DNA from: Sphingobacteriaceae bacterium
Lineage (GTDB): Bacteria; Bacteroidota; Bacteroidia; B-17B0; Aurantibacillaceae
Assembly (NCBI GenBank): GCA_002319075.1
Contig: NVQB01000001.1
Location: 496,001-560,000, forward strand
Length of the DNA: 64,000 nucleotides
Direction of reading: 5' to 3'
Below are positions 28,847-52,000 of the stretch, piece after piece. Made by a program: the position numbers and the translations under genes. Under the pieces are notes generated by a model that saw only the letters and a program-made list of their open reading frames with translations, searched no databases and had not been told where the DNA came from. The stretch's first letter is position 1, and the number at the start of each line of letters is the position of its first letter.

Positions 28847-31800
28847 TTATTTTTTACCTATTAAAAATTCGAGTGCTATCACACTTTGATTGTATTGTTG
28901 AATTGCTTGCAAATAATTCTCCCTGATCGACAAAGCATTTTTTAAACCTTGTAAATATTCTACATAACCAATCTCTCCGCTCTTAAATCCTTTGTCAGCC
29001 TGTTTAATCAAAAGCTCCGCATTTGGTATGGCGTTTGTTTCGTAGTAGACAAGTGTATTTTTGTTTTTTAGAAATTCCTGCAGGGCTTGACTGTACTGTC
29101 CTTGAAGGTTTAACCGGTATTGCTCAAAATTACTTTGTACCACTTGTTGATTTATGTCCGCCGCTTTTACCCTTGCCGCTTGCGGAAAAAACCAAAGTGG
29201 AATGGAGATCCCTACTTGTATTCCAGTAAAGCGTTTTGAGCCATCAAAATACTGATCCGTGCCATTTACATTTTGATAACCGATTAAGGATTGATTAAAA
29301 TATCCGACATTAAAATCTGGCAATGATTTTGCAGCTTCTACTTTCTTTTGCCGGTTACTGATCTCTATCTGCTGTTTTACATAAGAAATAGCCGGATTTT
29401 GACTAAGTGTTGAACTATCTGCAGGAAGTGTTAAGTCCAGTTTTTTAAATGGCATTTCGCTGAACGCTATTTCGCTTTTAGCATTGACCAAAACCTGCAA
29501 ATGCGCTTGATAAATTAGAATATTTGACGAGTTCTGTGCCAGGAGATTTCTGACCTCCATTAACTGTGTTTCGGCAGTGGTTCGTTCTAACAAATTACTT
29601 TCTCCGGTTTTTAGGCGCAGCTCTGCGGCCTTTGAGAAGGAAGTATAAATGCTATCCTGGGTAATTAAAAGTTTTTTCTGTGCTTTTAAAAACTGCAGAT
29701 TGTAATAGGCAGATTTTACCTGGCTGATTAATTCATTTTGTGTCATCAGCAATTTCAATTCACTTCCTTTAACCAATGCGTTATTTAATTTTGTCTGGCT
29801 TAAAAATACGGTAGGAAAAGGAATGCTTTGATTGATACTGATATTGTTATCGGTATTTACAGAGTTGTATTGACCATGCATTACCGAAATGTTGGTTTTA
29901 CCTATGTCGGAAGATGTTCGTTTGAGGGTCTTGCTATAATTGATTTCATAGGTGGCTGCTTTTATTCCTGCGTTATTTTTTAGCGCTTCGTCCACAATCT
30001 GTTGTTCGGTTAAACCCGAACTCACAGTTTGAGCAGTACCAAACGTTGGAAGTAATAGTAACAAGAGTATGGCCACTGTTGGTAAACTCGTTTTTTTCTT
30101 TCCCATTTTTTCAAAAAAGAAATAGAGTATGGGAAGTACTAATAAGGTAAGAAGTGTTGCAGATAGCAATCCGCCAATAACCACAGTAGCGAGTGGTTTC
30201 TGTACTTCAGCACCAGATCCATGAGACAGGGCCATCGGTAAAAATCCAAGAGATGCAACCAGGGCTGTCATAATTACGGGACGCAAACGTGTGCTGGTGC
30301 CCTTTAAGATGATTTCTTTCAGATCGTTCATACCTTCTTTTTTTAAACTGTTGAATTCTGATATTAATACTATGCCATTTAAAACAGCAACACCAAACAA
30401 AGCAATAAAACCAACTCCAGCGGAAATGCTAAAAGGCATTCCTCTGAGCCATAGTGCAAATACGCCCCCTATGGCAGACAAGGGAATGGCTGTTAAAATC
30501 AATAAACTCTGCTTTATAGAATTGAAGGTGAAATAGAGTAAAATAAAAATTAAAAAAAGTGCCACTGGAACCGCGATAGATAAACGCTGACGAGCCTCCA
30601 CCAGATTTTTAAAAGTGCCACCATAAGTAGGATAATATCCAGGATTAAAATTTATTTCCTTATCTACTTTTGCCTGCATTTCTTTTACAACGCTTTCAAC
30701 ATCTCTGCCGCGCACATTAAAGCCCAAGGTTATTCTTCTTTTAGCATCATCGCGCTGAATTTGATTAGGACTTATTTTAAATTCCACTTCGGCCAATTGT
30801 GAAACAGGTACCTGATTGCCATTTGGCGCAATTACAAATAAATTATTAATATCCTCAATGCTCTGCCTGTTTTCTTTTTCCAGTCTCACCACCAGGTCGA
30901 AACGTTTTTCTCCTTCGTAAATTAAACCGGCACTTTCTCCGGCAAAACCAGTTTTAATAATTTGATTCACGTCCTCTATGGTTAATCCGAATTGTGCAAT
31001 TTTATCTCTGTCAAATTTTATCACAATTTGCTGTTGTCCTGTTGCCTGTTCTACATATAAATCCTGGGCACCTTTAATTCCTTGTGTTAGCTTGCCAACC
31101 TTCACTGCATACTCAGTTAGCATATCAAGGTCCTCGCCATAAATTTTTATAACCACGTCTTGTTTTGCTCCCGACATTAATTCGTTAAAGCGCATTTGTA
31201 TGGGTTGCTGAAAACCGAAAGTCACTCCGGGAATATCTTCCAGGGCCTGAGACATTTTTTCTGCGAGCTCATCGCGCGAGGAGGCGCTGGTCCACTCCGA
31301 CTTGTCTTTGAGTATCACCATTAAGTCGCATGCTTCCACCGGCATGGGATCTGTGGGAATTTCACTAGAGCCTATTTTTCCAATAACTTCAATGACTTCC
31401 GGAAACTTCTCCTTTAAAATTTTAGCGGACCTTAGAGCGGCCTCAATGGTTTGAGAAATCGAACTACCCGTTAAAACCCTTGTTTCTACAGCGAAATCAC
31501 CTTCATCGAGCGTTGGAATAAATTCTCCACCCATGTTGAGAAATACGATAAGGCTGAAAATAAAAAGAACAGCCGCGCTTATTACAATACTTACTTTATT
31601 TCTTAGGGCGCCTATCAGCAGTGGTCTGTAGCTACGTTGGAAAAAATCCATGATACGATCCGATACTGTTTTTTTATGAACGGTGTTTTTATTCAGGAAC
31701 AAAGCAGAGATCATGGGTACATAAGTGAGCGATAAAATAAAGGCGCCAAGAATGGCGAATGACACCGTTTGCGCCATAGGCCTGAACATTTTCCCTTCCA

Positions 31801-33205
31801 CACCAACAAGGGCAAGAATAGGTAAATACACTATGAGAATAATGATCTCTCCAAATGCTGCAGAGCTTCTGATTTTTGAGGCTGACTGATAGACTTCCTC
31901 ATCCATTTCAGTTTGTGTTAATTTTTTGTTCAGCTTTCTACTCACTAAATGATGAAGGCTTGCTTCTACAATAATTACGGCGCCATCTACAATCAATCCG
32001 AAGTCGATGGCACCTAAACTCATTAGGTTACCCGATACACCAAACAGATTCATTAAGGAAATGGCAAAAAGCATAGCCAGAGGAATAACAGATGCAACAA
32101 TCAATCCGGCCCGGAGGTTGCCCAGGAGCAGCACTAAAACGAAGATAACGATCAAAGCACCTTCTGCCAGATTTTTCGTAACAGTTCCAATAGCATTGTT
32201 CACCAATTTTGTTCTGTCTAAAAAAGGTTCAATAACAACACCTTCAGGCAAAGTTTTTTCAATTTGTGTGATGCGCTCTTTAACGCTGGCAATTACTTTT
32301 GAAGAATTTGCCCCTTTCAACATCATCACAATCGCGCCAACAACCTCTCCCTCACTGTTGCGGGTCATTGCACCATAGCGTGTAGCGTGGCCAAAGCCGA
32401 TTGTTGCCACATTGCGCATTAAAACAGGAATTCCGTTAGGATACGTTTTTACAACGATGCGTTCGATATCTTCTAAACTACCTATTAATCCTTCGCTACG
32501 AATGAAATAGGCATTTGGCTTTTTATCAATGTAAGCGCCACCTGTATTCTGATTGTTTTTTTGCAGGGCGGTGAACACTTCGCTTATACTGATATTCATA
32601 CTGCGAAGTTTATCCGGATTTAAAGCAATTTCGTATTGTTTTACATACCCACCAAAGCTACTGATATCAGCTACTCCTTCGGTTCCCAAGAGCTGCCTGC
32701 GAACGATCCAATCCTGAATAGTACGCAATTCCATGGGTGTGTATTTTTTCTCGAAACCTTTTTTTGTGTGAATCACATATTGGTAAATTTCTCCGAGACC
32801 TGTTGTGAGCGGCGCCAATTCAGGCGTACCGACACCTTGTGGAATAATGGTTTTAGCTTGTGTGAGTCGTTCGTTCACTTGCTGCCGTGCCCAATAAACG
32901 TCTACGTGTTCTTTAAATACTATAGTAACAACAGAAAGTCCGAAACGCGAAAAAGAACGAACTTCTTCTATGCCCGGAATAGTAGCCATTGTTTGTTCGA
33001 CTGGAAAAGTAACCAGGCGCTCTATTTCCTGGGCAGCCAGAGAAGGAGAAACGGTTATAACCTGTACCTGGTTGTTAGTGATGTCAGGCACCGCATCAAT
33101 GGGCAATTGTTTTAATGAGTAGCTCCCCCATAGAATCAAAGCCAATGTAAAAAAACCTATAATTAATTTATTTTTTATAGAGAAGTGAATAATCTTATCT
33201 AACAT
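28847..33205 (-). CDS. CzcA-like heavy-metal RND pump fused to a TolC-like outer-membrane factor
   Basis: A protein of 1452 residues. The first 1030 or so form an RND pump of the heavy-metal class, with 12 membrane helices and the charged helix-4 motif DFGLIVDGAVIIVE near residue 400, matching the divalent-cation (Co/Zn/Cd) type. At Met1034 a new signal peptide begins: GKKKTSLPTVAILLLLLLP, ending TFGTAQ. The rest is an outer-membrane efflux protein with repeated helical hairpins (LTEQQIVDEALKNNAGIKAA). Similar fusions occur in Bacteroidota. The inner and outer parts cannot stay in one chain across the envelope unless the linker spans it, so cleavage or internal initiation at Met1034 is likely (inference). 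Confidence 0.92.
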   Translation of the reverse strand: MLDKIIHFSIKNKLIIGFFTLALILWGSYSLKQLPIDAVPDITNNQVQVITVSPSLAAQEIERLVTFPVEQTMATIPGIEEVRSFSRFGLSVVTIVFKEHVDVYWARQQVNERLTQAKTIIPQGVGTPELAPLTTGLGEIYQYVIHTKKGFEKKYTPMELRTIQDWIVRRQLLGTEGVADISSFGGYVKQYEIALNPDKLRSMNISISEVFTALQKNNQNTGGAYIDKKPNAYFIRSEGLIGSLEDIERIVVKTYPNGIPVLMRNVATIGFGHATRYGAMTRNSEGEVVGAIVMMLKGANSSKVIASVKERITQIEKTLPEGVVIEPFLDRTKLVNNAIGTVTKNLAEGALIVIFVLVLLLGNLRAGLIVASVIPLAMLFAISLMNLFGVSGNLMSLGAIDFGLIVDGAVIIVEASLHHLVSRKLNKKLTQTEMDEEVYQSASKIRSSAAFGEIIILIVYLPILALVGVEGKMFRPMAQTVSFAILGAFILSLTYVPMISALFLNKNTVHKKTVSDRIMDFFQRSYRPLLIGALRNKVSIVISAAVLFIFSLIVFLNMGGEFIPTLDEGDFAVETRVLTGSSISQTIEAALRSAKILKEKFPEVIEVIGKIGSSEIPTDPMPVEACDLMVILKDKSEWTSASSRDELAEKMSQALEDIPGVTFGFQQPIQMRFNELMSGAKQDVVIKIYGEDLDMLTEYAVKVGKLTQGIKGAQDLYVEQATGQQQIVIKFDRDKIAQFGLTIEDVNQIIKTGFAGESAGLIYEGEKRFDLVVRLEKENRQSIEDINNLFVIAPNGNQVPVSQLAEVEFKISPNQIQRDDAKRRITLGFNVRGRDVESVVKEMQAKVDKEINFNPGYYPTYGGTFKNLVEARQRLSIAVPVALFLIFILLYFTFNSIKQSLLILTAIPLSAIGGVFALWLRGMPFSISAGVGFIALFGVAVLNGIVLISEFNSLKKEGMNDLKEIILKGTSTRLRPVIMTALVASLGFLPMALSHGSGAEVQKPLATVVIGGLLSATLLTLLVLPILYFFFEKMGKKKTSLPTVAILLLLLLPTFGTAQTVSSGLTEQQIVDEALKNNAGIKAATYEINYSKTLKRTSSDIGKTNISVMHGQYNSVNTDNNISINQSIPFPTVFLSQTKLNNALVKGSELKLLMTQNELISQVKSAYYNLQFLKAQKKLLITQDSIYTSFSKAAELRLKTGESNLLERTTAETQLMEVRNLLAQNSSNILIYQAHLQVLVNAKSEIAFSEMPFKKLDLTLPADSSTLSQNPAISYVKQQIEISNRQKKVEAAKSLPDFNVGYFNQSLIGYQNVNGTDQYFDGSKRFTGIQVGISIPLWFFPQAARVKAADINQQVVQSNFEQYRLNLQGQYSQALQEFLKNKNTLVYYETNAIPNAELLIKQADKGFKSGEIGYVEYLQGLKNALSIRENYLQAIQQYNQSVIALEFLIGKK

Positions 33206-38818: not shown

Positions 38819-38911
38819 TCATTTATTACCGGTACTTCGCTTTGAATATCCTGTTAAGTTACAAAGAGCTGCATGCGCAATACATCCTGTATAAACTTGT
38901 TCTATTTTCAT
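38819..38911 (-). pseudogene. N-terminal remnant of an MBL-fold (persulfide dioxygenase-like) gene
   Basis: Thirty codons from ATG 38911 read MKIEQVYTGCIAHAAL and then lose the family pattern, with a stop at 38819-38821. The opening matches, from memory, the start of Bacteroidota MBL-fold hydrolases with a rhodanese domain (MKIEQIYTGCLAxAAYYI), which are related to persulfide dioxygenases. The metal-binding HxHxDH part is gone. Its promoter and operator look intact. The context, beside rhodaneses and a TauE-type gene, fits such an origin. Confidence 0.5.
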
Positions 38912-38931
38912 AATTCTTACATTTTATAGTG

Positions 38932-38976
38932 CAAAGTTCGGAAACGCATTTTAAGAGAAATGTAACTTTTGTTCCC
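38932..38976 (-). promoter_or_regulatory. Operator 1 and -7 box facing the MBL remnant
   Basis: The inverted repeat TGTAACTTTTGTTCCC is at 38961-38976. Read leftward, its centre is 29.5 bases from the first base of GAACTTTG (38939-38932, minus strand), a -7 box of type nAnnTTTG. The spacing is identical to that of operators 2, 3 and 4 and places the site near -42, as for activation by Crp-type regulators at class II promoters. Confidence 0.65.
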
Positions 38977-39050
38977 TAACCGCATGATTTTTGTCACATC
39001 GCCTAAATGAACTTTTCGCACGAACAATTCCGTAATTTTACAAGCATAAT

Positions 39051-39671
39051 ATGACACCATCCACCACACTCTTTAGCGATGCAGAATTAAATAAGGAAAT
39101 AGAGCTGCATGCGAAATACAAACATATTAAAAAAGAAACGCTGCTTATAAAACCAGGTGACGAGGTGGTCTTTATACCTATAGTGCTTAAAGGTAGCATT
39201 CGTATCATTCGCCAGGATGAGGATGGATCGGAGGTATTTCTTTATCATTTATACCCCGGGCAAACTTGTGCCATGTCATTAAGCTGCTGCCAATCGCATA
39301 AAAAAAGTATAATTAAAGCTATTGCAGAAACGGATTCTGAGATCCTTCAGATCCCCGTAAAACTGACTGAGGATTGGTACCGTTTTCCTGAATGGAAAGC
39401 TTACATCAGTAATAATTATAATAATCGCTTTGCCGAACTTATGCAGGTGATCGATCTGATTGCCTTTAGCAATATGGACAAACAACTGCAACATTATCTT
39501 GAGGAACGTGCCAAAGCCCTCGATACACGTTTCTTACAAATTACCCATCAGGGAATAGCGGATGAGCTGCATGCACACCGTGAAGCCATCAGCCGTTTGC
39601 TGCGAACTATGGAGCAAAAAAAACTGGTAAAGCTTGGTAGAAATAGCATTGAAGTTTTGACCCTGCAATAA
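39051..39671 (+). CDS. Crp/Fnr-family regulator with clustered cysteines
   Basis: A 206-residue regulator with a cyclic-nucleotide-binding-type beta-roll (about 25-115, LKGSIRIIRQDEDGSEVFLYHLYPG), a dimer helix and a C-terminal winged HTH (ITHQGIADELHAHREAISRLL). No N-terminal Fe-S cysteines of Fnr are present. Instead Cys73, Cys79 and Cys80 lie together in GQTCAMSLSCCQ at the place where Crp binds cAMP phosphate, so a thiol, persulfide or redox signal may be sensed (inference). It sits at the hub of the sulfur cluster and most likely binds the four AAC-N4-GTT operators nearby. Confidence 0.88.
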   Translation: MTPSTTLFSDAELNKEIELHAKYKHIKKETLLIKPGDEVVFIPIVLKGSIRIIRQDEDGSEVFLYHLYPGQTCAMSLSCCQSHKKSIIKAIAETDSEILQIPVKLTEDWYRFPEWKAYISNNYNNRFAELMQVIDLIAFSNMDKQLQHYLEERAKALDTRFLQITHQGIADELHAHREAISRLLRTMEQKKLVKLGRNSIEVLTLQ

Positions 39672-39702
39672 AGAGTTACGAGTGAGTTAAATCATGTTTT
39701 AA

Positions 39703-39747
39703 TGTAACAAATGTTACACGGCAAATTTAAAGTGAATAGTACTATTG
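39703..39747 (+). promoter_or_regulatory. Operator 2 and -7 box of the first DUF2892 gene
   Basis: TGTAACAAATGTTACA (39703-39718) is a perfect palindrome. Its centre is 29.5 bases before TACTATTG (39740-39747), one base from TAnnTTTG. Transcription would begin near 39753, putting the operator at about -42. Confidence 0.75.
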
Positions 39748-39769
39748 TATTAAATTTAAAAACTTCGTT

Positions 39770-39976
39770 ATGAAAAAGAACATGGGCACAGCCGACAAAA
39801 TTATCAGAATACTTGTAGCACTTGTGATCATTGCATTGTATTATACCGGTACTATAACTGGTACAATCGCCATCATTGGCCTTATCTTATCAGGAATTTT
39901 TATAGTAACAAGCTTCATCAGTTTTTGCCCTCTCTATTTACCCTTCGGTATCTCAACACGAAAAAAAGAAAATTAG
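39770..39976 (+). CDS. DUF2892 (YgaP-type transmembrane) protein
   Basis: Sixty-eight residues with the family pattern: an amphipathic start (KNMGTADKIIRILVALVI), two membrane helices and the conserved FISFCPLYLPFGISTRKK ending. In other bacteria the domain is fused to rhodaneses (YgaP of E. coli), where it moves sulfane sulfur or thiocyanate at the membrane. The Cys in SFCPLY is part of the family motif. It has its own operator and promoter and a terminator behind it. Confidence 0.88.
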   Translation: MKKNMGTADKIIRILVALVIIALYYTGTITGTIAIIGLILSGIFIVTSFISFCPLYLPFGISTRKKEN

Positions 39977-39998
39977 AAACAACTTCTATTTGGAATTG

Positions 39999-40029
39999 AA
40001 AGCAGGCTTTTGTAGCCTGCTTTTTTTTT
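39999..40029 (+). terminator. Terminator after the first DUF2892 gene
   Basis: AAAGCAGGC (39999-40007) pairs with GCCTGCTTT (40015-40023) around a seven-base loop, followed by T. Confidence 0.92.
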
Positions 40030-40047
40030 CATACAAAATGAGCCCCG

Positions 40048-40092
40048 TGCAACATTTGTTCCAATACGTTTTTAAAAAGCGCTTTATCATTG
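40048..40092 (+). promoter_or_regulatory. Operator 3 and -7 box of the second DUF2892 gene
   Basis: TGCAACATTTGTTCCA (40048-40063); centre 29.5 bases before TATCATTG (40085-40092). The downstream bases ATTGTATTAA are the same as at the first DUF2892 promoter, as expected from a duplication that included the promoter. Confidence 0.7.
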
Positions 40093-40111
40093 TATTAATA
40101 AAACAATCACA

Positions 40112-40324
40112 ATGAAAAAAAGTAGGGGAAGAACACACCGAAACGTAAGAACGCTGGTAGCGCTGGTAATCCTTTACCTGTATTTAACCGAACGGATCAA
40201 TGGTAAAATTGCAATAATTGCCCTGAGTCTGTCCGGCTTTTTTATAGCCCTGAGCTTTATAAGCTTTTGTCCGCCCTATTTGCCCTTTGAAATTTCAACA
40301 AGAAAAAATGATAAGGCATTCTAA
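40112..40324 (+). CDS. Second, divergent DUF2892 protein
   Basis: Seventy residues, a paralogue of the protein at 39770. The ending FISFCPPYLPFEISTRKND is kept, but the first helix is altered (NVRTLVALVILYLYLTERI) and charged residues appear (Glu, Arg) where the first copy has Thr-Gly. The Gly-Thr-Ala start of the family is replaced by a Lys/Arg-rich stretch (KKSRGRTHRNVR). Tandem duplication followed by fast change is likely. Whether it still works like the first copy is open. Confidence 0.85.
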   Translation: MKKSRGRTHRNVRTLVALVILYLYLTERINGKIAIIALSLSGFFIALSFISFCPPYLPFEISTRKNDKAF

Positions 40325-40357
40325 GATCAAAACTATTTTTCCAAAAACCTCAGCTTA

Positions 40358-40402
40358 TCCAACAGTTGTTCCCGAATGAACCTTTCTACTTTCTCAAATT
40401 TG
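40358..40402 (+). promoter_or_regulatory. Operator 4 and -7 box of the DUF6132-rhodanese operon
   Basis: TCCAACAGTTGTTCCC (40358-40373) keeps the AAC-N4-GTT core. Its centre is 29.5 bases before CAAATTTG (40395-40402), a -7 box with one change. The box ends eight bases before the ATG at 40411, so the leader would be about three bases. Confidence 0.6.
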
Positions 40403-40410
40403 TACTATAA

Positions 40411-40635
40411 ATGAAGAAAAAGATTATTAAGTATAAACTGGAACTCATGGGAATACTGGTAGGTTCTGTCGGGGGCTGGATGTATTGGTTTTTTATCGGT
40501 TGTTCCAGTGGTACCTGTGCCATCACATCGCATCCAATAAATAGTTCATTATACGGAGCATTTATGGGAGCTGTATTGCTGGGAATACTGAGAAAAGAAA
40601 CAAAAAAAGAAGAACAACAAAAAAGTATAAAATGA
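40411..40635 (+). CDS. DUF6132-family small membrane protein
   Basis: Seventy-four residues with two membrane helices separated by a Cys-containing loop: IGCSSGTCAITSHPINSSLYGA. This CxxxxC-ITSHPxxSxxYGA pattern is the mark of DUF6132, found in Bacteroidota next to rhodanese and YeeE/YedE-type sulfur transport genes. A role in membrane passage or delivery of sulfur is an inference from that company. It is the first gene of the long operon and overlaps the next by four bases (ATGA). Confidence 0.85.
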   Translation: MKKKIIKYKLELMGILVGSVGGWMYWFFIGCSSGTCAITSHPINSSLYGAFMGAVLLGILRKETKKEEQQKSIK

Positions 40636-40898
40636 AAAATTTAGAAGAATTAATTAAATCAGGCAAAGCCACGATTATAGATGTTAGAACCCCTGCTGAA
40701 TTTGCAGGAGGGCATGTAAACGGAAGTGTGAATATTCCATTGCAGGAACTTCCGCAACGCCTTAGCGACATAAGAACTATGGAACACCTTGTGCTTTGCT
40801 GCGCCTCTGGAAATCGTAGCGGACAGGCAACAGCGTTTTTAAAACAAAATGGAATACCCTGTGAAAATGCAGGCTCCTGGATGGATATAAATTGTTAA
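40632..40898 (+). CDS. Single-domain rhodanese
   Basis: An 88-residue sulfurtransferase. VRTPAEFAGGHVNGSVNIPL is the CH2A-type motif and CCASGNRSGQA the active loop; the catalytic Cys57 would carry a persulfide. A second Cys precedes it and another is the last residue (Cys88), unusual and perhaps a relay. Cytoplasmic, as no signal peptide is present. The gene starts inside the DUF6132 stop. Confidence 0.92.
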   Translation: MKNLEELIKSGKATIIDVRTPAEFAGGHVNGSVNIPLQELPQRLSDIRTMEHLVLCCASGNRSGQATAFLKQNGIPCENAGSWMDINC

Positions 40899-40909: not shown

Positions 40910-41227
40910 ATGATACAAGCACTTAAAAACATGTTAGGCTTAGGTCCAAAAGCAGACCTTGGAGCTCTTATTGCAAAAGGGGCGCAGATTATTGATGTTC
41001 GCTCAAGAGGTGAATACGCTTCGGGACATTTGAAAGGATCTTTGAATATTCCACTAGATCAATTACAGGATCACCTTAAAAAATTGAAAAGTCCCGATCA
41101 CCCTATCATCACATGCTGTGCATCGGGTATGCGAAGCAGCTCGGCAAAAAGTTACCTGAAAACCCAGGGATTCACCAACGTTCACAACGGAGGTTCGTGG
41201 CACAGTTTGAAAAAATATAACAAATAA
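40910..41227 (+). CDS. Single-domain rhodanese
   Basis: A 105-residue sulfurtransferase; ATG 40910 is preferred to a TTG at 40892 because it leaves no overlap with the previous gene. IDVRSRGEYASGHLKGSLN and the active loop CCASGMRSSSA (catalytic Cys70) are plain. An extra N-terminal helix (IQALKNMLGLGPK) sets it apart from the first rhodanese. Tandem single-domain rhodaneses suggest relay of sulfane sulfur to different acceptors. Confidence 0.92.
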   Translation: MIQALKNMLGLGPKADLGALIAKGAQIIDVRSRGEYASGHLKGSLNIPLDQLQDHLKKLKSPDHPIITCCASGMRSSSAKSYLKTQGFTNVHNGGSWHSLKKYNK

Positions 41228-41230
41228 AAA

Positions 41231-41494
41231 ATGTTTAAACACTGGAAAATACGCCTCACACAAGGCTGGAATTTTATGCGGGTATTCAGGCTGGGGCTTG
41301 CAATTCTGGTATTGATGGAGGCATGGAAAAGTTCACAAATTCTTTTCGCCGGGCTAGGTGGAATACTGCTATTCCAGGCATTAATAAATGTGGGTTGCTG
41401 TGGGAGTTCGGGCTGTGATATAAATCATAAAGATAAAGGTGATAGATCATCCTCTGTTATAGCTGAAGAAACGACCTTTGAAGAAATCAAATAA
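41231..41494 (+). CDS. Small membrane protein with a CCGSSGC motif
   Basis: Eighty-seven residues: a basic start, two hydrophobic segments (FRLGLAILVLMEAW and LFAGLGGILLFQALINV) and Cys56, Cys57 and Cys62 in GCCGSSGC directly after the second helix, then an acidic tail. The layout recalls YgaP-type membrane anchors. The Cys cluster at the membrane face could accept sulfur from the rhodaneses or bind a soft metal. No named family is certain. The start lies three bases after the rhodanese stop. Confidence 0.8.
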   Translation: MFKHWKIRLTQGWNFMRVFRLGLAILVLMEAWKSSQILFAGLGGILLFQALINVGCCGSSGCDINHKDKGDRSSSVIAEETTFEEIK

Positions 41495-41496
41495 GA

Positions 41497-41934
41497 ATGG
41501 TAATTCCCGAAATCATATATTCTACGCTAAGCAATAGATGCCCGCGTTGTCATAAAGGCCAGGTGTTTGAGAACAATTTCTCTTATAACCCCAAAAACAC
41601 TTTTGCTATGCACCACCATTGCAGTGAATGCCAACTCAAATACGAAAGAGAGACGGGATTCTTCTACGGCGCCATGTATGTTTCCTACGCATTAATGTCA
41701 GGCATTCTAATCATTTGGTTTATTACCGACCTGCTATTTCTTCACATGGAAGCTCTTGATCTCGCCATGCTTGTTGTCTCCACGATGTTACTTTTTTTCC
41801 CGGTAGCTTATCGCTGGGCAAGAATTATCTGGCTAAACTTTTTTGTGCGTTACGATAAAAGTTATGCCGATAAAAATTTTCATGCATTGAAAGAATTAAA
41901 ACTAAAACAAAATGAAAACAAGTATAACCATTGA
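41497..41934 (+). CDS. DUF983 family zinc-ribbon membrane protein
   Basis: A 145-residue protein with an N-terminal zinc ribbon (Cys15, Cys18, Cys42, Cys45 in RCPRCHKG and HHHCSECQ) and two membrane helices (GAMYVSYALMSGILIIWF and LDLAMLVVSTMLLFF). RETGFFYGAMYVSYA is the DUF983 mark. The function of the family is unknown. It is not usually linked to sulfur, so its place in this operon is of interest. Its 3' end overlaps the HMA gene by 23 bases. Confidence 0.9.
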   Translation: MVIPEIIYSTLSNRCPRCHKGQVFENNFSYNPKNTFAMHHHCSECQLKYERETGFFYGAMYVSYALMSGILIIWFITDLLFLHMEALDLAMLVVSTMLLFFPVAYRWARIIWLNFFVRYDKSYADKNFHALKELKLKQNENKYNH

Positions 41935-42074
41935 TCATTTAAAATGCAGAGTTTGTGCAGCCACTTTTAAAAAAAGTCTGCACACTTTTGAAAAAAGTTA
42001 ATGCTTACGTGAATTGTGCTATTGGTAAATTATATCCTGAAAAAGAACATGAAAAACTTTCAAAACATAATTAA
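41912..42074 (+). pseudogene. Frameshifted heavy-metal-associated (HMA) domain gene
   Basis: From ATG 41912 the frame reads KTSITIDHLKCRVCAATFKK then stops at 41999-42001 just after a run of six A (41991-41996). Shifted by one base it goes on [21 protein letters not shown] to a stop at 42072-42074. The sum is a HMA-like domain with CxxC (Cys-Arg-Val-Cys) that ends short. It runs into the thioredoxin start. Either the gene is dead, the A run is a slippage site, or one base is wrong in the assembly. Confidence 0.65.
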
Positions 42075-42348
42075 TTCGGAAAAGCCAGTATTGGTAGATT
42101 TTTATGCCGAATGGTGCGGTCCCTGCAAAACGATGACACCAATTCTGGAGCAACTTAAAAAAATGGTTGGTGACTCTGCAACTATAGTGAAAATAGACGT
42201 AGATAAAAATCCGGAAGCGGCGAACTTATACCAGGTAAGAGGAGTACCCACCCTTTTACTATTTAAAAAAGGAGAAATTAAATGGCGGCAATCGGGTGTC
42301 GTACCCTCCGATCATCTAAAATTAATTATTGATAGAAATAGTATTTAA
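42049..42348 (+). CDS. Thioredoxin
   Basis: A 99-residue cytoplasmic thioredoxin with the WCGPC active site (Cys23 and Cys26), [13 protein letters not shown] before it and the cis-Pro loop [13 protein letters not shown] 42049 was chosen, since residues before it come from the HMA remnant. In a sulfur operon it could reduce persulfides on the rhodaneses or glutathione-like thiols. It precedes the OsmC gene by four bases. Confidence 0.95.
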
Positions 42349-42352
42349 TAGT

Positions 42353-42799
42353 ATGGAAACAAAACACTTTTATGAAATAGACGTGGACTGGGTAACAGAC
42401 CGCAAAGGACTTATGAACTCACCGGTATTAAAACATAACCTGGAAGTAGCAACACCACCTGAATTTCCAAAAGGAATGGAAGGCATTTGGTCGCCCGAAC
42501 ATTTATTTGTGGCCGCAGTGAATAGCTGCCTCATGACAACATTTCTTTCGATTGCCGAGAATTCGAAACTTGAATTTCAAAGTTTCCGCTCAAAAGCAAT
42601 AGGCAAGCTGGAGCTGATAGATGATAAATACATGATGAGTGAAATAACGCTCATGCCAGTACTTACTATAGATGATGAAATACAGAAAGAAAAAGCAAAC
42701 CGGGTTCTTCAGAAGTCAGAGGCCAATTGCCTGATCTCAAACTCTGTTAAATCTAAAATTATTTTTAAGCCAGAAGTCAAAATAACATCCATTAGTTAA
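42353..42799 (+). CDS. OsmC/Ohr-family protein
   Basis: A 148-residue OsmC-fold protein from ATG 42353. The two family cysteines are Cys59 (AAVNSCLMTTF) and Cys126 (SEANCLISNS), and WSPEHLFVAAV is typical. OsmC/Ohr proteins reduce organic peroxides with a Cys pair, and some act on persulfides. Close relatives in Bacteroidota lie near rhodanese genes. Operon position, four bases behind the thioredoxin gene, suggests the thioredoxin as its reductant (inference). Confidence 0.9.
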   Translation: METKHFYEIDVDWVTDRKGLMNSPVLKHNLEVATPPEFPKGMEGIWSPEHLFVAAVNSCLMTTFLSIAENSKLEFQSFRSKAIGKLELIDDKYMMSEITLMPVLTIDDEIQKEKANRVLQKSEANCLISNSVKSKIIFKPEVKITSIS

Positions 42800-42802
42800 C
42801 TT

Positions 42803-43525
42803 ATGAAAATTTTTAATTCTTCCCTCTTCTTTCTTGTTATAACTTTTCTTCTTACATCCTGTGGTTCACAACATACTCAGCCAAATTTCAGAGAATTATC
42901 TCCTGAAGAGTTTGAAAGTGGGCTCGCTAAAAATCCCTCGCTACAATTAATAGATGTAAGAACTCCTGAGGAATTTGAACGGGGTCACCTGGAAGGTGCT
43001 GCGAATTATAACATCCAAACTACTGATTTTGAAAAGGAGATTGAAAGTCTCGATAAAAACAAACCGGTATATATCTATTGCTTGTCAGGAGGAAGAAGTG
43101 CCTCGGCCGCATCACTTCTTATTAAAAGGGGATTTTCAGAAGTACATAACATGACTGGCGGACTCATGAAGTGGAACGCAAGTAACAGAAAACTTGTGGA
43201 GGGCAAGGCCGTGGTCAAAAAAACCGGTATGACTGTTGAAATGTTTAAGGAATTTTTAAAAACCGATAAATTTGTTTTGATAGACTATAATGCCAGGTGG
43301 TGCCTACCCTGCAAAAAAATGGCGCCCATGTTAGACAGTCTTGCAACCAGTAAGAGTGAAAAGCTTACCCTGGTAAAAATTGACGCCGACGAAAATTCAG
43401 ACTTGATCAAGATAAAAGGCATAGAAAGTCTACCCGTACTTGAACTCTATAAAAACGGTAAAATGATCTGGAAGCACGAAGGAGAGATAGAAGAACAGGA
43501 GCTGCTGGATCAAATAAAGCTATAA
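42803..43525 (+). CDS. Lipoprotein with fused rhodanese and thioredoxin domains
   Basis: A 240-residue envelope protein. The lipobox FLLTSCG marks Cys20 for lipidation. The rhodanese domain (about 30-130) has the CH2A motif DVRTPEEFERGHLEG and the active loop CLSGGR (Cys93). The thioredoxin domain (about 140-240) has WCLPC (Cys167, Cys170) and the loop GIESLPVLELY. The fusion couples sulfur transfer with thiol reduction on one chain outside the cytoplasm, mirroring the cytoplasmic rhodaneses and thioredoxin of the same operon. Reductant and acceptor are unknown. Confidence 0.92.
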   Translation: MKIFNSSLFFLVITFLLTSCGSQHTQPNFRELSPEEFESGLAKNPSLQLIDVRTPEEFERGHLEGAANYNIQTTDFEKEIESLDKNKPVYIYCLSGGRSASAASLLIKRGFSEVHNMTGGLMKWNASNRKLVEGKAVVKKTGMTVEMFKEFLKTDKFVLIDYNARWCLPCKKMAPMLDSLATSKSEKLTLVKIDADENSDLIKIKGIESLPVLELYKNGKMIWKHEGEIEEQELLDQIKL

Positions 43526-43531
43526 GTATTC

Positions 43532-43945
43532 ATGATAACGGGTAAAAGAAAAGCTATAAGTAATTTCATTCGTCAGTTTGCAACGGTTGTTGATAGTGAA
43601 AAACGCGTGTACAAAATTGAGCAGGGCCTTTTTGGAATCTTCCACTGGGGTAGCTTTCAGCCACTCCCCAAAATAGAGTATGTGTTGATATTCAGAAGCT
43701 TTTTCGCCAAATGTGAAGCTTGTGCTTTCGATGCCGGAGACGATAACCCCAACGCTTACTTCCAGGTGAGCCTGGTTTACAGAAGCAACCGACGGATTAT
43801 ACTACACGAAACTAAAAAAAAACAGGAGGCTTTCGAACTTGCAACGGAAACCGCAAAAGCATTAAAAACAAAAATCTGCGATTCAGCAACCATTCCTGGA
43901 AAAGGAACCTGGCATAGCATAATTAATGAGAATAAATTAAAATGA
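43532..43945 (+). CDS. Unknown protein with a CxxC motif, in the sulfur operon
   Basis: A 137-residue protein without signal peptide or membrane helix. It begins TGKRKAISNFIRQFATVVD, has a KCEAC motif in FRSFFAKCEACAFDAGDD and a third Cys (KTKICDSAT). The beta-rich middle and helical tail (EAFELATETAKALK) suggest a small alpha/beta fold. No family is recognised. It overlaps the TauE gene by four bases (ATGA) and so is part of the operon. Confidence 0.7.
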   Translation: MITGKRKAISNFIRQFATVVDSEKRVYKIEQGLFGIFHWGSFQPLPKIEYVLIFRSFFAKCEACAFDAGDDNPNAYFQVSLVYRSNRRIILHETKKKQEAFELATETAKALKTKICDSATIPGKGTWHSIINENKLK

Positions 43946-44319
43946 CACCAACAACTGTTTTGTTACTTACCCTCATTGGTTTAAGCGCAGGTGCCCTGGG
44001 AGGCATGGTAGGCCTGGGAGGTGGCATCATACTTATTCCAGCCTTAATCATGATCATGAAGCTCGATCAGCAAACAGCACAAGGAACGAGTATCGCCATC
44101 ATGTTGCCACCTATCGGTTTATTTGCAGTTTACAATTATTACAAAGGTGGCTATGTAAACGTGAATTATGCAGTGATAATCGCAGCTGCTTTTATGATAG
44201 GAGGGTATTTCGGTTCACTCTTTGCTTTGAAACTTTCTCCTGATTTGATGCGTAAGGTGTTTAGCGCGCTCCTTATTGTAATCGCCATAAAAATGTTCTT
44301 TTCAGGTAAAACTGTATAA
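43942..44319 (+). CDS. Half-length TauE/SafE-family sulfite/sulfonate exporter
   Basis: A 125-residue membrane protein with about four helices and the family motif GLSAGALGGMVGLGGGIILIPALI plus QQTAQGTSIAIMLPP. Full-length TauE/SafE proteins have about 250 residues made of two such halves. Half-length members probably work as dimers. Exported substrate may be sulfite, thiosulfate or a sulfonate, which would remove the end product of persulfide oxidation. It closes the operon. Confidence 0.88.
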   Translation: MTPTTVLLLTLIGLSAGALGGMVGLGGGIILIPALIMIMKLDQQTAQGTSIAIMLPPIGLFAVYNYYKGGYVNVNYAVIIAAAFMIGGYFGSLFALKLSPDLMRKVFSALLIVIAIKMFFSGKTV

Positions 44320-46066: not shown

Positions 46067-49000
46067 TTATTCAACTATTAACTTGAAATTACCCGAAGCC
46101 TCTTTGCCCTTAATTTTCAGGTAATAAACGCCCCTGGCATACTTTGTAACATCCACCTCTTCAAACTCATTTTCGGTTTTATACACTTCGATTATCTGCC
46201 CGATTTCATTTGAAATTTGTATTTCCTTTGTTCCGGAGAATTCAAATTTTACACTCACCCGGGTTTGCGCAGGATTAGGATAAACGGAAATGGATGTACT
46301 TCTATTTGTTTTTTCCGTAAATCCTGTGCAGTCTGAAACAGATAGTGAAACCAACGTGCTCGAAGAACAGCTATTGAGACCTGTTCCGCTTAGTGTATAA
46401 TTAGTGGAAATGCTTGGAGCCACTGTAAGTGTGCTGGCATTCGAGCCTGTGTTCCAAGTGTATGTGTCCGCACCGCTAACAGTAATAGTTGCCGAATCTC
46501 CGTTGCACAGTGTGGCGTTGCTTATCATTACTGAAATCATGGGTTTTTCGTTAACCGTAACCGACGAAATTACAGCAGACGCACTACTACAGCCGTCGCT
46601 GCTCGTACCTATAACCGAATAGTTAGTACTTACCGTAGGCATAACCACAAAATTCCCACCTTCAAGCGTATACACACTGGCACCTGTTGGTATAATGCTA
46701 AAGGCTTCACCGCTACAAATGGTACCGCTATTCACCGATATAACCGGCAAGCTGTAAACCGTTACCGCTACGGTTGCGGCTGTGCTGCTTATACAACCTC
46801 CATTTCCTGTACCAAAAATAGTATAGCTCATATTTGTTAGCGGACTCACCACATTACTTCCTCCTGAATATGTGTAGCTGTTTGCACCACTGGGGTTAAG
46901 GGTAAAAGACTGACCTGTGCAAACCGAACCGCTGCTTGCTATAATCGTTGGTGTAGTGTAAACCGTCAAATTTGACAAAGCGATAGTATTTGAAACACAA
47001 CCGTTTGTACCAGTGCCTATAACTGAATAACTAGTATTAACAAGGGGTGAAACAGTAAAAGCTCCTCCACTGATAGTATAAGAAGATGCGCCGGATGGTA
47101 CAATCGCAAACATATTTCCTGAACAAATAGATCCGCTATTGACACTTACTGTTGGCGAATTAAACACACTAATGATCGAAACAGCTGTATTCGAAGACGC
47201 ACATCCTTCAAGACTTACTCCGGTTAACGAATAAGAAGTATTGCTTGCTGGAGACACTATAAAAAGTCCACCGCTTATGTTATAAACAGAAGCTCCCGAA
47301 GGAATAATCGTAAACGAACTCCCTGTGCACAAGGATCCGCTATTTACAGAAATACTCGGCAAGCTGTATACCGTAACGGCCAAACTTGCGCTACTGCTAC
47401 AATACAAGGAGTTTGTTCCTGTTACAGAGTAAACGGTTGATACAAGAGGAGTTTCTGAGATAAGGTTCGAAAACGAACCGTTGCTCCATGCAAAAGAGAT
47501 TGCACCAGATGCCTGAAGTGTAAGTGTAGTGCCTGCACACAGTGTATTATTGCCAGCAATAGTAACTGTTGGCAGAGGATTTACTGCGATAAGTACAGTT
47601 TTTGTAGTAACGCAAGCGTTATTTATATCTATTCCCTGAACGGTATAAACGCTTGGTGCCGCTGGTGTAAATGTAGCAACAGCATTAGCCGGACCGTTTG
47701 TCCAAAGGAAGTTGGTAGCTCCACTTGCAGTAAAAGTGATCGCACTTTGCGCACAAATTGCCGACGAAGACTGATTAATAGTAATAACAGGAAGAGAATT
47801 CGTGTTTATAGTTACAAGCGTTGATGAAATACAACCAGCACTGCTTGCTCCACTTAAAGTATAAGTACTGTTAACAGAAGGATTTACAACGCTAAGACTT
47901 CCAACACTAATTGAATTGAGAGAATAAGAGGAAGCACCGGACCCCGTAATGGTGGCGCTGCCGAATGCGCAAACTAAAGTAGACGACGCATTTACAGAAA
48001 CTGCTGGCAATGAATATACATTTACAGCGAGACTAGTCGTTGCCGAGCAACCCGCCGCATTTGTCCCGCTAAGATTAACAACTGTAGTTGTAGCCGGCGT
48101 AAATAAAATGGATGCAGAAGTGCTTCCATTACTCCATAAATAGCTGTTGGCACCATTGGCGCTCAGAAAAACCGAGCTACCAACACAGGTACTTGCGGTT
48201 CCTGAAATACTAAGCGTTGGTGAAGCGCTAACGGAAACGGAAATTGTTTCTGAACCAATGCAACCGTTGGTGATATCTGCACCGGATACAGTGAAAACAC
48301 CCGATGACAGAGGACTGAAAGAAGCCACAGATGAATTGGGACCATTGGTCCACGAGTAGTTAGTGGCACCATTAGCAGTAAACGACACCGACGCCGGAAT
48401 ACAAATACTGGTACTAGAAGGAGAAATACTGATAACAGGAAGACTCTTAGTGGCAATCGAAAGTGTATTGCTCGAAGCACAGCCGGCAATGTTGCTACCA
48501 AACAAAGTATAAATACTAGTACTTAGCGGACTTACAGTTGTACTTACTCCATTTCCTCCTGAGCTCCAGGTATAGTTATTAGCGCCATTTGCTGTGAGAT
48601 TTACGGCTGTTCCTAAACATACAAGTGTACTCGATGCGCTAATGTTCACTATAGGGTTAGTGGCTGACAAGACTGCAAGAGTGATAGTTGAAGTACAGTT
48701 ATTCCCGTTTGTGCCACTCAAAGTATAAACAACATTGCTTAAAGGTGTTATAATAATCTGATTGCTGTTTTGACTTGTACTCCAGGTATAAGTAGTGGCT
48801 CCGCTTGCCGTCAGCGTCGACGATTGTCCTGCGCAAATAGTAGTAGCACCAGAAATAGACAAACTTGGACTTGGATCTACTGCAACTGCGAGTTGAGCAC
48901 TATTGCTGCATGTAGAGCTTCCTCCAATTACTGAGTAGGTGGTTGAACTTGAGGGAGTCACTACAACACTCGCCCCTGTAGCTCCTGTATTCCATGTATA

Positions 49001-52000
49001 AGTTGGGTAGCCACTCGCTGTTAAGATTACGGTTTGTCCACTACACGCCACAGTTGGACCAGTTATAGAAATCAGAGAAGGACTGACTACTGCGACAGAA
49101 AATGAAACAATCCCGGAAATGCATCCCGCTATATTTGTTCCCTGAGCAGTGTAGACAGTTGATGTAACCGGACTCGCTACAAGACTATTAGAAAACGAAG
49201 AATTATTCCAGGTATAAGACATAGCTCCACTTGCAGTGAGACTAACGCTTTGACCAGCACAAATCTGTGATGCTCCATTGATGGAGATTGTTGGAGCAGC
49301 TAATACATTTACCGTTACAGTGCCCGAAGAGCTGCAACCGGCAGCATTGGAGCCAATCACAGAGTAGGTTGTACTCACTGATGGCGTGGGATTTATAGAT
49401 GCACCACTCATGCCATTACTCCAGGAATAGGAAGTGGCTCCTGATGCAAGCAGCGTTGCCGATACACCGGCACATACAGAGGCATTAGCGGATGAAATAC
49501 TAAGCGTAGGATTTTGCGATATAATAACCGGAATATTTGCTGAAACGCCAGAACCACAAGGTGAACTTGCATAAGTAACGTAATAATTTGTCGCCACAGT
49601 TGGTGTAACCACTATACTCGGAGAAGTGGCTCCTGTACTCCAGGTGTAACTTGCCGCACCAGATGCAGATAGTGTTGTTGAGCCTGAACACGACAATGTA
49701 TTAGAACTTGTAATAGTTAAAGTTGGTTGAGCAATAACAGTGACTAAAACAACATTAGAATTGGCAAATAACGAATTCCCAGGACAAGTCTCCATGATTT
49801 TAAAATAATAAGTACCTGCAGATAACGCGCCAGCATTTAAATAAGGAGTTGTATAACCCGAACCAAAATTCACATTTGTATAAGTGCCAACCGATGTTGG
49901 TGAAACAAGCCATTGATAAGTTGAATTTGTTCCACCGCTCATGTTTGTTGTTTGCAGATAAACTGGCTGTCCACCACAAATTGTAAAGTTAGGCGTAGTT
50001 ACCGTTCCTGCACCTGCAGCAACACACGTTCCGGTTGCAGCGAACTCATCGGCTCCCATATCTGGAGTAAGCGTGCTGCGTGATTGACCATCAATATCTT
50101 GTGTAATCCCTAAAGGTGTTCCTAAATTATCTACAAGCGCATTAGCAGCCACAGTAGCGTCAATATGTGCATTAACCGAAGAAGTGAACCACGGCTTCAT
50201 GTTAATCGAATTATTATTTCCACCAAAAGCAGTTTTAAACGCAGCTAGTGTTGTTAATGAAGTCGAAACGATTCCTAATGCTCCTTGCGATCCTTCAACG
50301 AAATAATTATTGTAATCCATAGTGGCGAGTTGTTTTCCATAACCACTTAATACGGCATATGTTCTTGACGTCGCGTTATTGGGATTGACCACATTCGTGT
50401 AAAAAATATTGTTACGAAGGTCTATATCTGTAGTTGCGTCATAATACATGCAAGCTGATTGGCAACTTGTGGTCGACGATAAACTTGAGCCAAAATTTAA
50501 AGCAAAAGTATTATGGTAAACTTTGATGTTTTTAGCAGACACGCCAGACTTAATGCATAAACCATAGGTACCATAAGAAACGCCACTACTCAGCCCGCTT
50601 ATGTTTGTAACCATATTATTGCTAATCAATATATCGCGTGTAAAACTTAAAGGATAAAGATTGATACCCACACAACCTCCACCACTGGTAGTAGAGGTTT
50701 GCGCAACATTAGTTATTACATTCGAAGTAACGGTAACATTTTTAATAGGACCGTACAAATCCATGCCGTAAGGATTGGCGTAAGTAGAAGAATTGGTAAC
50801 ATTATCTATAGTATTATTTCTTACAGTAAGTAGCACTGCACTCTTTACATAGATACCTGTTTCCTTAATTGCCGTGGTGTAAGAGCCTGCTGAGCCAAAA
50901 CGATTATTTTCTATAAGGCAATTCGAAAATTTACTTTGGGTCACATCATAATTATCGCCCATCTCAATACCATAATTGAGCCCGTAAAAATAATTGTTTT
51001 GAATTTTTATATCTGTATTAAAACCATTGGATGCAATACCGCTGGAAGTGCAATTTGTAAGTGAGTTAACAGTAAGATTTTTGAAGGTCAAATGATTATT
51101 TCCCGGACCTGAAAGCGAATTAGACTGTAAATAAATAATTTCATTTATGTAATTAGTATTAGTAACCACAACTGACAAACTACTACCGCCACTATTCAAT
51201 CCATCAAGCGTAATGTAGGACGCGTCTTGAAACTTTAACACATTATATATAAAGTTAATCGTAGTTCCTCTCACAGCAACCGTATTACCCGCAGCAGGAA
51301 TAATCAAAAGAGAGTTCGTCGCACTCGCCCCCGGATTGTTGCTAAATGTAATTGGAAAACTTTCTAAAGGAATTGTATAGAGGGTGTTCGTTAACACAAA
51401 AGTCACAGACCCGGTTAAACAAGCTTTATTGTAAGCATTCGCGGCTTGCGTAAGGCTGGTAAATGTACCGCCCGCGCCAACAGTATAAGTCCCTGCTAAA
51501 GACATATTTACTGTGTAGGTAGCTGCAACGGGAGTACTTGTCACATTGTTCACGCTGCCAGCACCAAACCCATTTGCAGGTTGCGACATAATGTTGCTTA
51601 AAGTCGAGGCATCCTGTGCTACAAGAAACCAGGAAATTTGATCGCCATAACTTACTGCGTAATTTATATTAAACGCCCAAATTCCTAAAGTGGAATTTCC
51701 AGACGCAAGCGACCCCGGGCTGGAAGTATAGGTACCGGAATTAATTTTAAAGTAAAACTGTGGTGCCAGCGAACCGGTCGCTACACCACTTTTATCGTAA
51801 AGTTGTGCTGTAAATGTTCTTCCACTCTGACCGCATGACATAGATGTAAAATCAGAATTTATTAGTGTTGGAGCAAGACTATCTGCGCCCGGAGGAATAT
51901 AGCTTCCTTCTATCGCACCTATATCAGGCGAGTTCACATCTCTCGCATTTCCGTAAAAGTCATTACTGATCCAGGAGATAGGCGCAGCGCCTGATTCTAT

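Follow-up and report, generated by a model that had tools for sequence, protein, structure and literature searches.

Inverted repeats at one fixed distance from promoter boxes around a Crp/Fnr-type regulator and sulfur-handling genes in a Sphingobacteriaceae bacterium

Class II activators have a layout in which the dyad is centred near -41.5, and in class II promoters of E. coli CRP and FNR the dyad for the Crp/Fnr dimer is centred at -41.5. The window analyzed here (64,000 nucleotides; it covers bases 496001-560000 on the main contig, and the genome has 5.65 Mb) encodes a Crp/Fnr-type regulator surrounded by four inverted repeats with the core AAC-N4-GTT, and most genes around it belong to sulfur-handling families. 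The locus raises the question of whether these repeats are operators of the regulator and what they control. We consider it likely that the four sites are class II activator operators of the regulator at 39051 and that they control a sulfane-sulfur regulon.

Candidate operators, promoter boxes and genes

The features of the locus, in window coordinates, are listed below.

38911-38867, minus strand: remnant of a divergent gene that has been lost; its 15 initial codons, MKIEQVYTGCIAHAA, share 87% identity with the protein of relative L035
38939-38932, minus strand: -7 box GAACTTTG of the leftward promoter, predicted start 38927
38961-38976, minus strand: candidate operator site 1, TGTAACTTTTGTTCCC in plus-strand reading, promoter leftward
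38985-38996, no strand assigned: second dyad, TGA-N6-TCA, 22 bp from site 1 and at -63.5 from the predicted leftward start
39051-39671, plus strand: Crp/Fnr-type regulator, 206 aa, with Cys73, Cys79 and Cys80 in the cNMP-like domain and an HTH recognition helix with R177-E178 and S181-R182
39703-39718, plus strand: candidate operator site 2, TGTAACAAATGTTACA
39740-39747, plus strand: -7 box TACTATTG, predicted start 39752
39770-39976, plus strand: YgaP-like_TM (DUF2892) membrane protein, 68 aa, by profile match
40048-40063, plus strand: candidate operator site 3, TGCAACATTTGTTCCA
40085-40092, plus strand: -7 box TATCATTG, predicted start 40097
40112-40324, plus strand: second YgaP-like_TM (DUF2892) protein, 70 aa, sharing 63% identity with the first
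40358-40373, plus strand: candidate operator site 4, TCCAACAGTTGTTCCC
40395-40402, plus strand: -7 box CAAATTTG, predicted start 40407, leaving a 4-base leader
40411-40635, plus strand: DUF6132 protein, which opens the rhodanese operon
40632-40898 and 40910-41227, plus strand: two rhodanese genes
41231-42348, plus strand: operon part with an 87-aa protein (no family match), a DUF983 protein, a gap with HMA-gene pieces and a thioredoxin (42049-42348)
42353-44319, plus strand: OsmC-like protein and the three features listed next
42803-43525, plus strand: rhodanese-thioredoxin fusion
between the fusion and the TauE half-protein, plus strand: 137-aa protein
43942-44319, plus strand: TauE half-protein

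The HMA (PF00403) gene pieces at 41914-42046 are split between frames; the gene has 94 aa in L035. Elsewhere in the window, a 1452-aa frame (28847-33205, minus strand) combines ACR_tran (RND pump) with OEP (outer-membrane efflux), and a repetitive protein of 2844 aa (46067-54601, minus strand) has an end that by eye resembles the sorting domain of secreted Bacteroidota proteins.

The first-pass annotation had described four AAC-N4-GTT inverted repeats at one fixed distance from TAnnTTTG-like boxes. All four repeats are in the sequence, and at every site the centre lies 29.5 bases before the first base of a box that fits NANNWTTG; GAACTTTG and CAAATTTG lack the first T of TAnnTTTG. A NANNWTTG box (background frequency about 1 per 261 bases per strand) stands 29.5 bases away on either side at 4/4 sites compared with 0/21 other cores in the window (Fisher 7.9e-5), but this pattern was derived from the same four sites, and the independent test is conservation elsewhere, where the distance holds. 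The bare core occurs in the window at chance level (25 observed, 25.5 expected). The flanked form TGNAAC-N4-GTTNC is enriched (5 compared with 0.74 expected; five or more in none of 100 shuffles), the five matches coming from three places, of which two match on both strands, with site 4 not fitting.

In the available part of a start-site map of Flavobacterium psychrophilum, the sigma-A box TAnnTTTG lies at -12 to -5 (PMC9723704). By this calibration the operator centres fall at -41.5, which supports the earlier placement near -42, and the starts would be at 38927 (minus strand), 39752, 40097 and 40407, so the three rightward starts proposed before (39753, 40098 and 40408) each move one base earlier. 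The proposed class II assignment combines an exact and conserved box distance with starts predicted from the Flavobacterium map.

Sites 2 and 3 each precede a YgaP-like gene. Two such genes are found only at the window locus (0/20 named loci with a DUF2892 match have two), and the two units of operator, promoter and gene have the look of a tandem duplication. Probably, then, site 3 and site 2 are duplicates of each other, and the four copies, all present, would amount to three ancestral promoters.

Site 1 has the orientation and spacing first reported, but it serves no gene here. In orthologous loci the leftward promoter serves a divergent metallo-beta-lactamase (MBL)/double-rhodanese gene of about 472 aa (PF00753, PF00581). 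Only 15 codons of this gene are left in the window, so the site 1 promoter and operator are leftovers, and an intact gene driven by the leftward site in its own genome is rejected. DNA homology to the orthologues starts at 38868 in 7/9 loci compared; in the other two, L093 covers less and L101 has no match. The genome carries two more distant MBL-rhodanese copies, at 4301113 and 2956256 (identity to the L035 protein 59% and 56%), and no core with a box at 29.5 was found within 1.5 kb on either side of them. The orthologue scores 47 bits against the curated sulfur transferase/dioxygenase model Blh (cut-off 625), and because this is far under the cut-off, the name persulfide-dioxygenase-like is a family guess.

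The second dyad, TGA-N6-TC[AG], keeps a centre-to-centre distance of exactly 22 bp to site 1, opposite to the box, in 10/10 loci with a leftward site beside the regulator (the window and nine others); this count omits L111 and also L104, where the palindrome can be read in either direction. By eye, its distance to the likely -7 box of the regulator gene itself varies among loci. It could be a second Crp/Fnr site of the leftward promoter, at -63.5, or an autoregulatory site.

The regulator, its signal and its mode of action

Profile searches place the regulator, with its cNMP-binding-like domain and a Crp-type HTH at the C terminus, in the Crp/Fnr superfamily (PF00027, 3.2e-10; PF13545, 2.5e-8). 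It matches the solved chains 3DV8, CRP and NtcA, the best being 3DV8 (E 4.9e-35), a putative Crp/Fnr regulator from Eubacterium rectale, a species of another phylum, with cysteines where the window regulator has Cys73 and Cys79. An AlphaFold model (pLDDT 85.8, pTM 0.62) has 4ev0 as its first fold match. An E. coli-type CRP, the cAMP sensor, is rejected (NF008732, 46.8 bits; cut-off 266), as is FNR, the [4Fe-4S] oxygen sensor (NF008365, 21 bits; cut-off 228). FNR has four cluster cysteines and the regulator has three Cys only.

The first-pass annotation had called the regulator Cys-bearing; of its cysteines, the Cys79-Cys80 pair is not constant in the family. In 30 members read by eye, drawn from 42 matches of an unselected search, Cys73 is present in 30, Cys79 in 24 and Cys80 in 22; in the 80 named loci used below, conservation of the cysteines follows from the selection itself, since they were part of the search pattern. 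Regulators L051-L053 have Gly-Gly in place of Cys79-Cys80 and still adjoin rhodanese genes. A vicinal Cys79-Cys80 sensor is thus rejected as a family rule, which leaves Cys73 as the candidate should a cysteine do the sensing. The Cys73 region presumably corresponds to the phosphate-binding cassette of CRP.

In the proposed mechanism, a regulator dimer would bind AAC-N4-GTT centred at -41.5, overlapping the -33 region, and would activate as a class II factor, bringing the housekeeping polymerase of Bacteroidota to a weak -7 box. The targets would act on sulfane sulfur: YgaP-like membrane proteins, the DUF6132 protein, rhodaneses and thioredoxins, with the MBL/rhodanese persulfide-dioxygenase-like enzyme and a CoA-disulfide-reductase-like protein added in relatives. 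The trigger would most likely be a reactive sulfur species, with Cys73 of the cNMP-like domain as its target. We tentatively suggest that a cyclic-nucleotide pocket has been turned into a Cys73-based sulfane-sulfur sensor that activates from -41.5, unlike repressor-type persulfide sensors, and that this arrangement is widespread. Of 23 genomes sampled from the class but not from the genus, 15 have relatives of the regulator, and the named relatives are titled Bacteroidota almost throughout.

The same regulator and sites could instead respond to haem, redox state or oxygen/NO, with the sulfur genes as one output; we regard this as unlikely. HcpR of Porphyromonas gingivalis, a haem-binding Crp/Fnr protein, is among the fold matches, and the haem-binding PgRsp was modelled on 3DV8 (PMC6955866), which is also the best solved relative here. 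In the available part of its description, PgRsp has 207 aa, belongs to an unassigned Crp/Fnr family, is reported to bind its own promoter, and carries Cys76 and Met78 spaced like Cys73 and Met75 of the regulator (PMC6955866). On that description, by the shared template and the Cys/Met spacing, PgRsp is the nearest described relative. It differs in being described as a redox regulator that binds haem and controls genes for haem uptake and peroxide, with no sulfur operon, and single changes of Cys76 or Met78 left its haem spectra unaltered, as reported in the same part (PMC6955866). The word rhodanese is absent from the PgRsp paper, as are the words consensus and binding site (PMC6955866). Against the haem reading, the genes around the present regulator are mostly of sulfur-handling families.

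Repressor or dual sites, released by sulfur stress as with ArsR- or CsoR-type persulfide sensors, are improbable. Regulators of the SqrR/BigR type and CstR are described as repressors in the source material available. A repressor would not need the layout found here, in which one exact distance and a centre at -41.5 go with an otherwise unconserved spacer, as in an activator. An alignment of 57 sites, all selected on core and box, has mostly A or T at the N4 positions, and a fixed -33 element is absent from the 21 bases preceding the box.

Distribution of the sites and conservation of the distance

The strict composite TSNAAC-N4-GTTNC, 23 N and ANNWTTG has three perfect matches in the 5.65 Mb genome, all at the window locus, and site 1 matches it with one mismatch. 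Seventeen other places have one mismatch, near the level of the reversed pattern (15). A control with one extra N has a single perfect match, at another place. A looser composite has five matches, four here and one antisense inside a 604-aa frame. A check proposed with the first-pass annotation, that sites should lie only near sulfur genes, thus agrees with the genome itself (3/3 perfect composites and 4/5 looser ones at this locus).

Across 40 genomes of the genus, SNAAC-N4-GTTNS with 23 N and ANNWTTG gave 116 matches, compared with 86 for a one-base-longer pattern and 61 for the pattern read backwards. Scoring was by script for 104 distinct places and by hand for 12 at regulator loci. Regulator loci account for 22 matches (the four of the window included) and places immediately upstream of sulfur genes at other loci for 12; this leaves 82, a number near the 86 of the one-base-longer control. 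The 12 sulfur-linked places are L190, L191, L195, L197, L201, L229, L234, L235, L261, L263 and L270, found by script, and L271, found by eye. The operator at L205 lies downstream of a sulfur operon and is not counted as sulfur-linked. Leaving regulator loci aside, the true pattern is intergenic in 29/94 places and sulfur-linked in 12/94 (11 by script, one by eye), compared with 2/30 (p = 0.005) and 0/30 (p = 0.03) among 30 of the 86 control places that were examined. The sulfur enrichment away from regulator loci is modest relative to this control. Similar operator-plus-box sequences ending in ATAAAACGTAAATTTTG were also seen within reading frames at L204 (genome G021) and L240 (genome G012).

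These distributions bear on which protein binds. That the regulator at 39051 is the binder remains an inference, but it has support in trans. In genome G024, contig 83 carries the regulator gene but no sulfur operon, and contig 29 has the operator ahead of a DUF6132-rhodanese-thioredoxin operon. Genomes G010, G011, G013, G017, G020 and G035 likewise have the operator before sulfur genes on a contig other than that of the family member, and G017 has one more site, before a gene called CoA-disulfide-reductase-like because it resembles, by eye, the L043 protein. Among 36 same-genus genomes searched for the protein (G060-G062 left out), a sulfur-linked site is present in 14/20 with a family member and in 1/16 without (Fisher 1.1e-4), and this co-occurrence may partly reflect joint absence of regulator and operon. 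The one exception, G009, has its sulfur-linked site on a 3.6 kb contig and no family member at E<=1e-15. Binding by another Crp/Fnr protein of the same cell is quite improbable. The genome has five further weak family matches (E 2.5e-7 to 1.8e-3), and site 1 has a neighbouring dyad of another type, TGA-N6-TCA. The local regulator, however, is the sole strong family member (E 2.4e-92; the next is 2.5e-7), and site and family member occur together across the genus.

The box distance was also compared in 80 named regulator loci, the best 80 of 370. With up to two flank mismatches, the box lies at 29.5 in 42 cases, compared with about 1.5 on average per distance for the 59 others (10.5-69.5). By number of flank mismatches (0, 1 and 2), there are 20, 17 and 5 cases at 29.5, and the means per other distance are 0.27, 0.44 and 0.76. 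Sites with three or four flank mismatches give one and zero matches at 29.5 in the 80 loci, with no peak. These counts are not independent, because many loci are close relatives and some are near-identical (e.g., L113 and L115).

In close loci (regulator at least 58% identical), a site is near the regulator gene in 21/25; none is near the gene in L100, L110, L111 and L114. Matches at L100, L111 and L148 fall inside long reading frames and are excluded from the counts of sites near the gene. Only 2/55 distant loci carry one near the regulator (L123 and L144), so the regulator family as a whole does not keep the operator. In the unselected set, the distance from site to box is 29.5 in the more distant L049 and L051 and 30.5 in L048. 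A relaxed core, RAY-N4-RTY, gives three matches at 29.5 in the 55 distant loci compared with 0.55 elsewhere, too few to use. GTGA-N6-TCAC dyads are near the regulator in 11/55 distant loci compared with two in control regions. Several of the loci L135-L170 have TGTGA-N6-TCACA-like dyads upstream of the regulator gene, which are perhaps the operator of those loci.

Chance palindromes in AT-rich promoters would account for the bare core being at chance level in the window, but this origin is rejected as having a negligible probability on the 29.5 peak in the 80 loci (20 compared with a mean of 0.27 for perfect flanks) and the genus scan, and in compared loci the sites are intergenic and before homologous genes.

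Sulfur genes and relation to known systems

By family membership, the targets of the candidate operators belong to sulfane-sulfur handling families, and their function in handling sulfane sulfur would follow from these families. A relative of DUF2892, DUF6132, rhodanese, the 87-aa type or MBL-rhodanese lies within 5 kb in 47/80 loci, some of which have short flanks. In the 48 loci with 10 kb flanks, a sulfur-type relative is within 5 kb in 24 and at 5-10 kb in three. Many Cyclobacteriaceae-type loci (L135-L170) are without sulfur-type relatives nearby, so the sulfur link, strong in the near clade, becomes patchy outside it.

E. coli CRP and FNR class II promoters share the fold of the regulator and the -41.5 dyad, which is a predicted position here. 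They differ in the operator, which is AAC-N4-GTT here and TGTGA-N6-TCACA or TTGAT-N4-ATCAA for CRP and FNR, and in the promoter, which has the Bacteroidota -7 box TAnnTTTG here; evidence for cAMP or an iron-sulfur cluster was not found. In E. coli, the sulfide-responsive regulator YgaV similarly controls the YgaP-type rhodanese protein, but the available text presents it as an SqrR/BigR homologue that represses its own operon and is reported as both repressor and activator elsewhere (PMC9774250), whereas the window regulator is a Crp/Fnr protein and probably an activator. The sulfane-sulfur sensors named in the available part of a review are FisR, SqrR, CstR, OxyR, CsoR, AdpA and MarR-type proteins; these respond to sulfane sulfur and several control sulfur-oxidation genes, but no Crp/Fnr protein is named, and the words FNR and CRP are absent (PMC11211675). 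In openly licensed PubMed Central literature, as far as its text was available, we found no Crp/Fnr regulator of sulfane-sulfur or rhodanese genes in Bacteroidetes, which is weak evidence, and no paper on an AAC-N4-GTT operator or its sulfur regulon.

Class II activation by Crp/Fnr proteins is known; the different operator and the sulfur regulon would be new. The operator, the exact distance, the predicted starts and one candidate cysteine make a whole regulon in an understudied phylum directly testable, and the distance rule offers a sequence-only route to class II promoters in Bacteroidota. Crp/Fnr proteins are absent among the sulfane-sulfur sensors named in the available part of the review (PMC11211675). 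The layout, conserved in close relatives, suggests a new kind of sulfur sensor.
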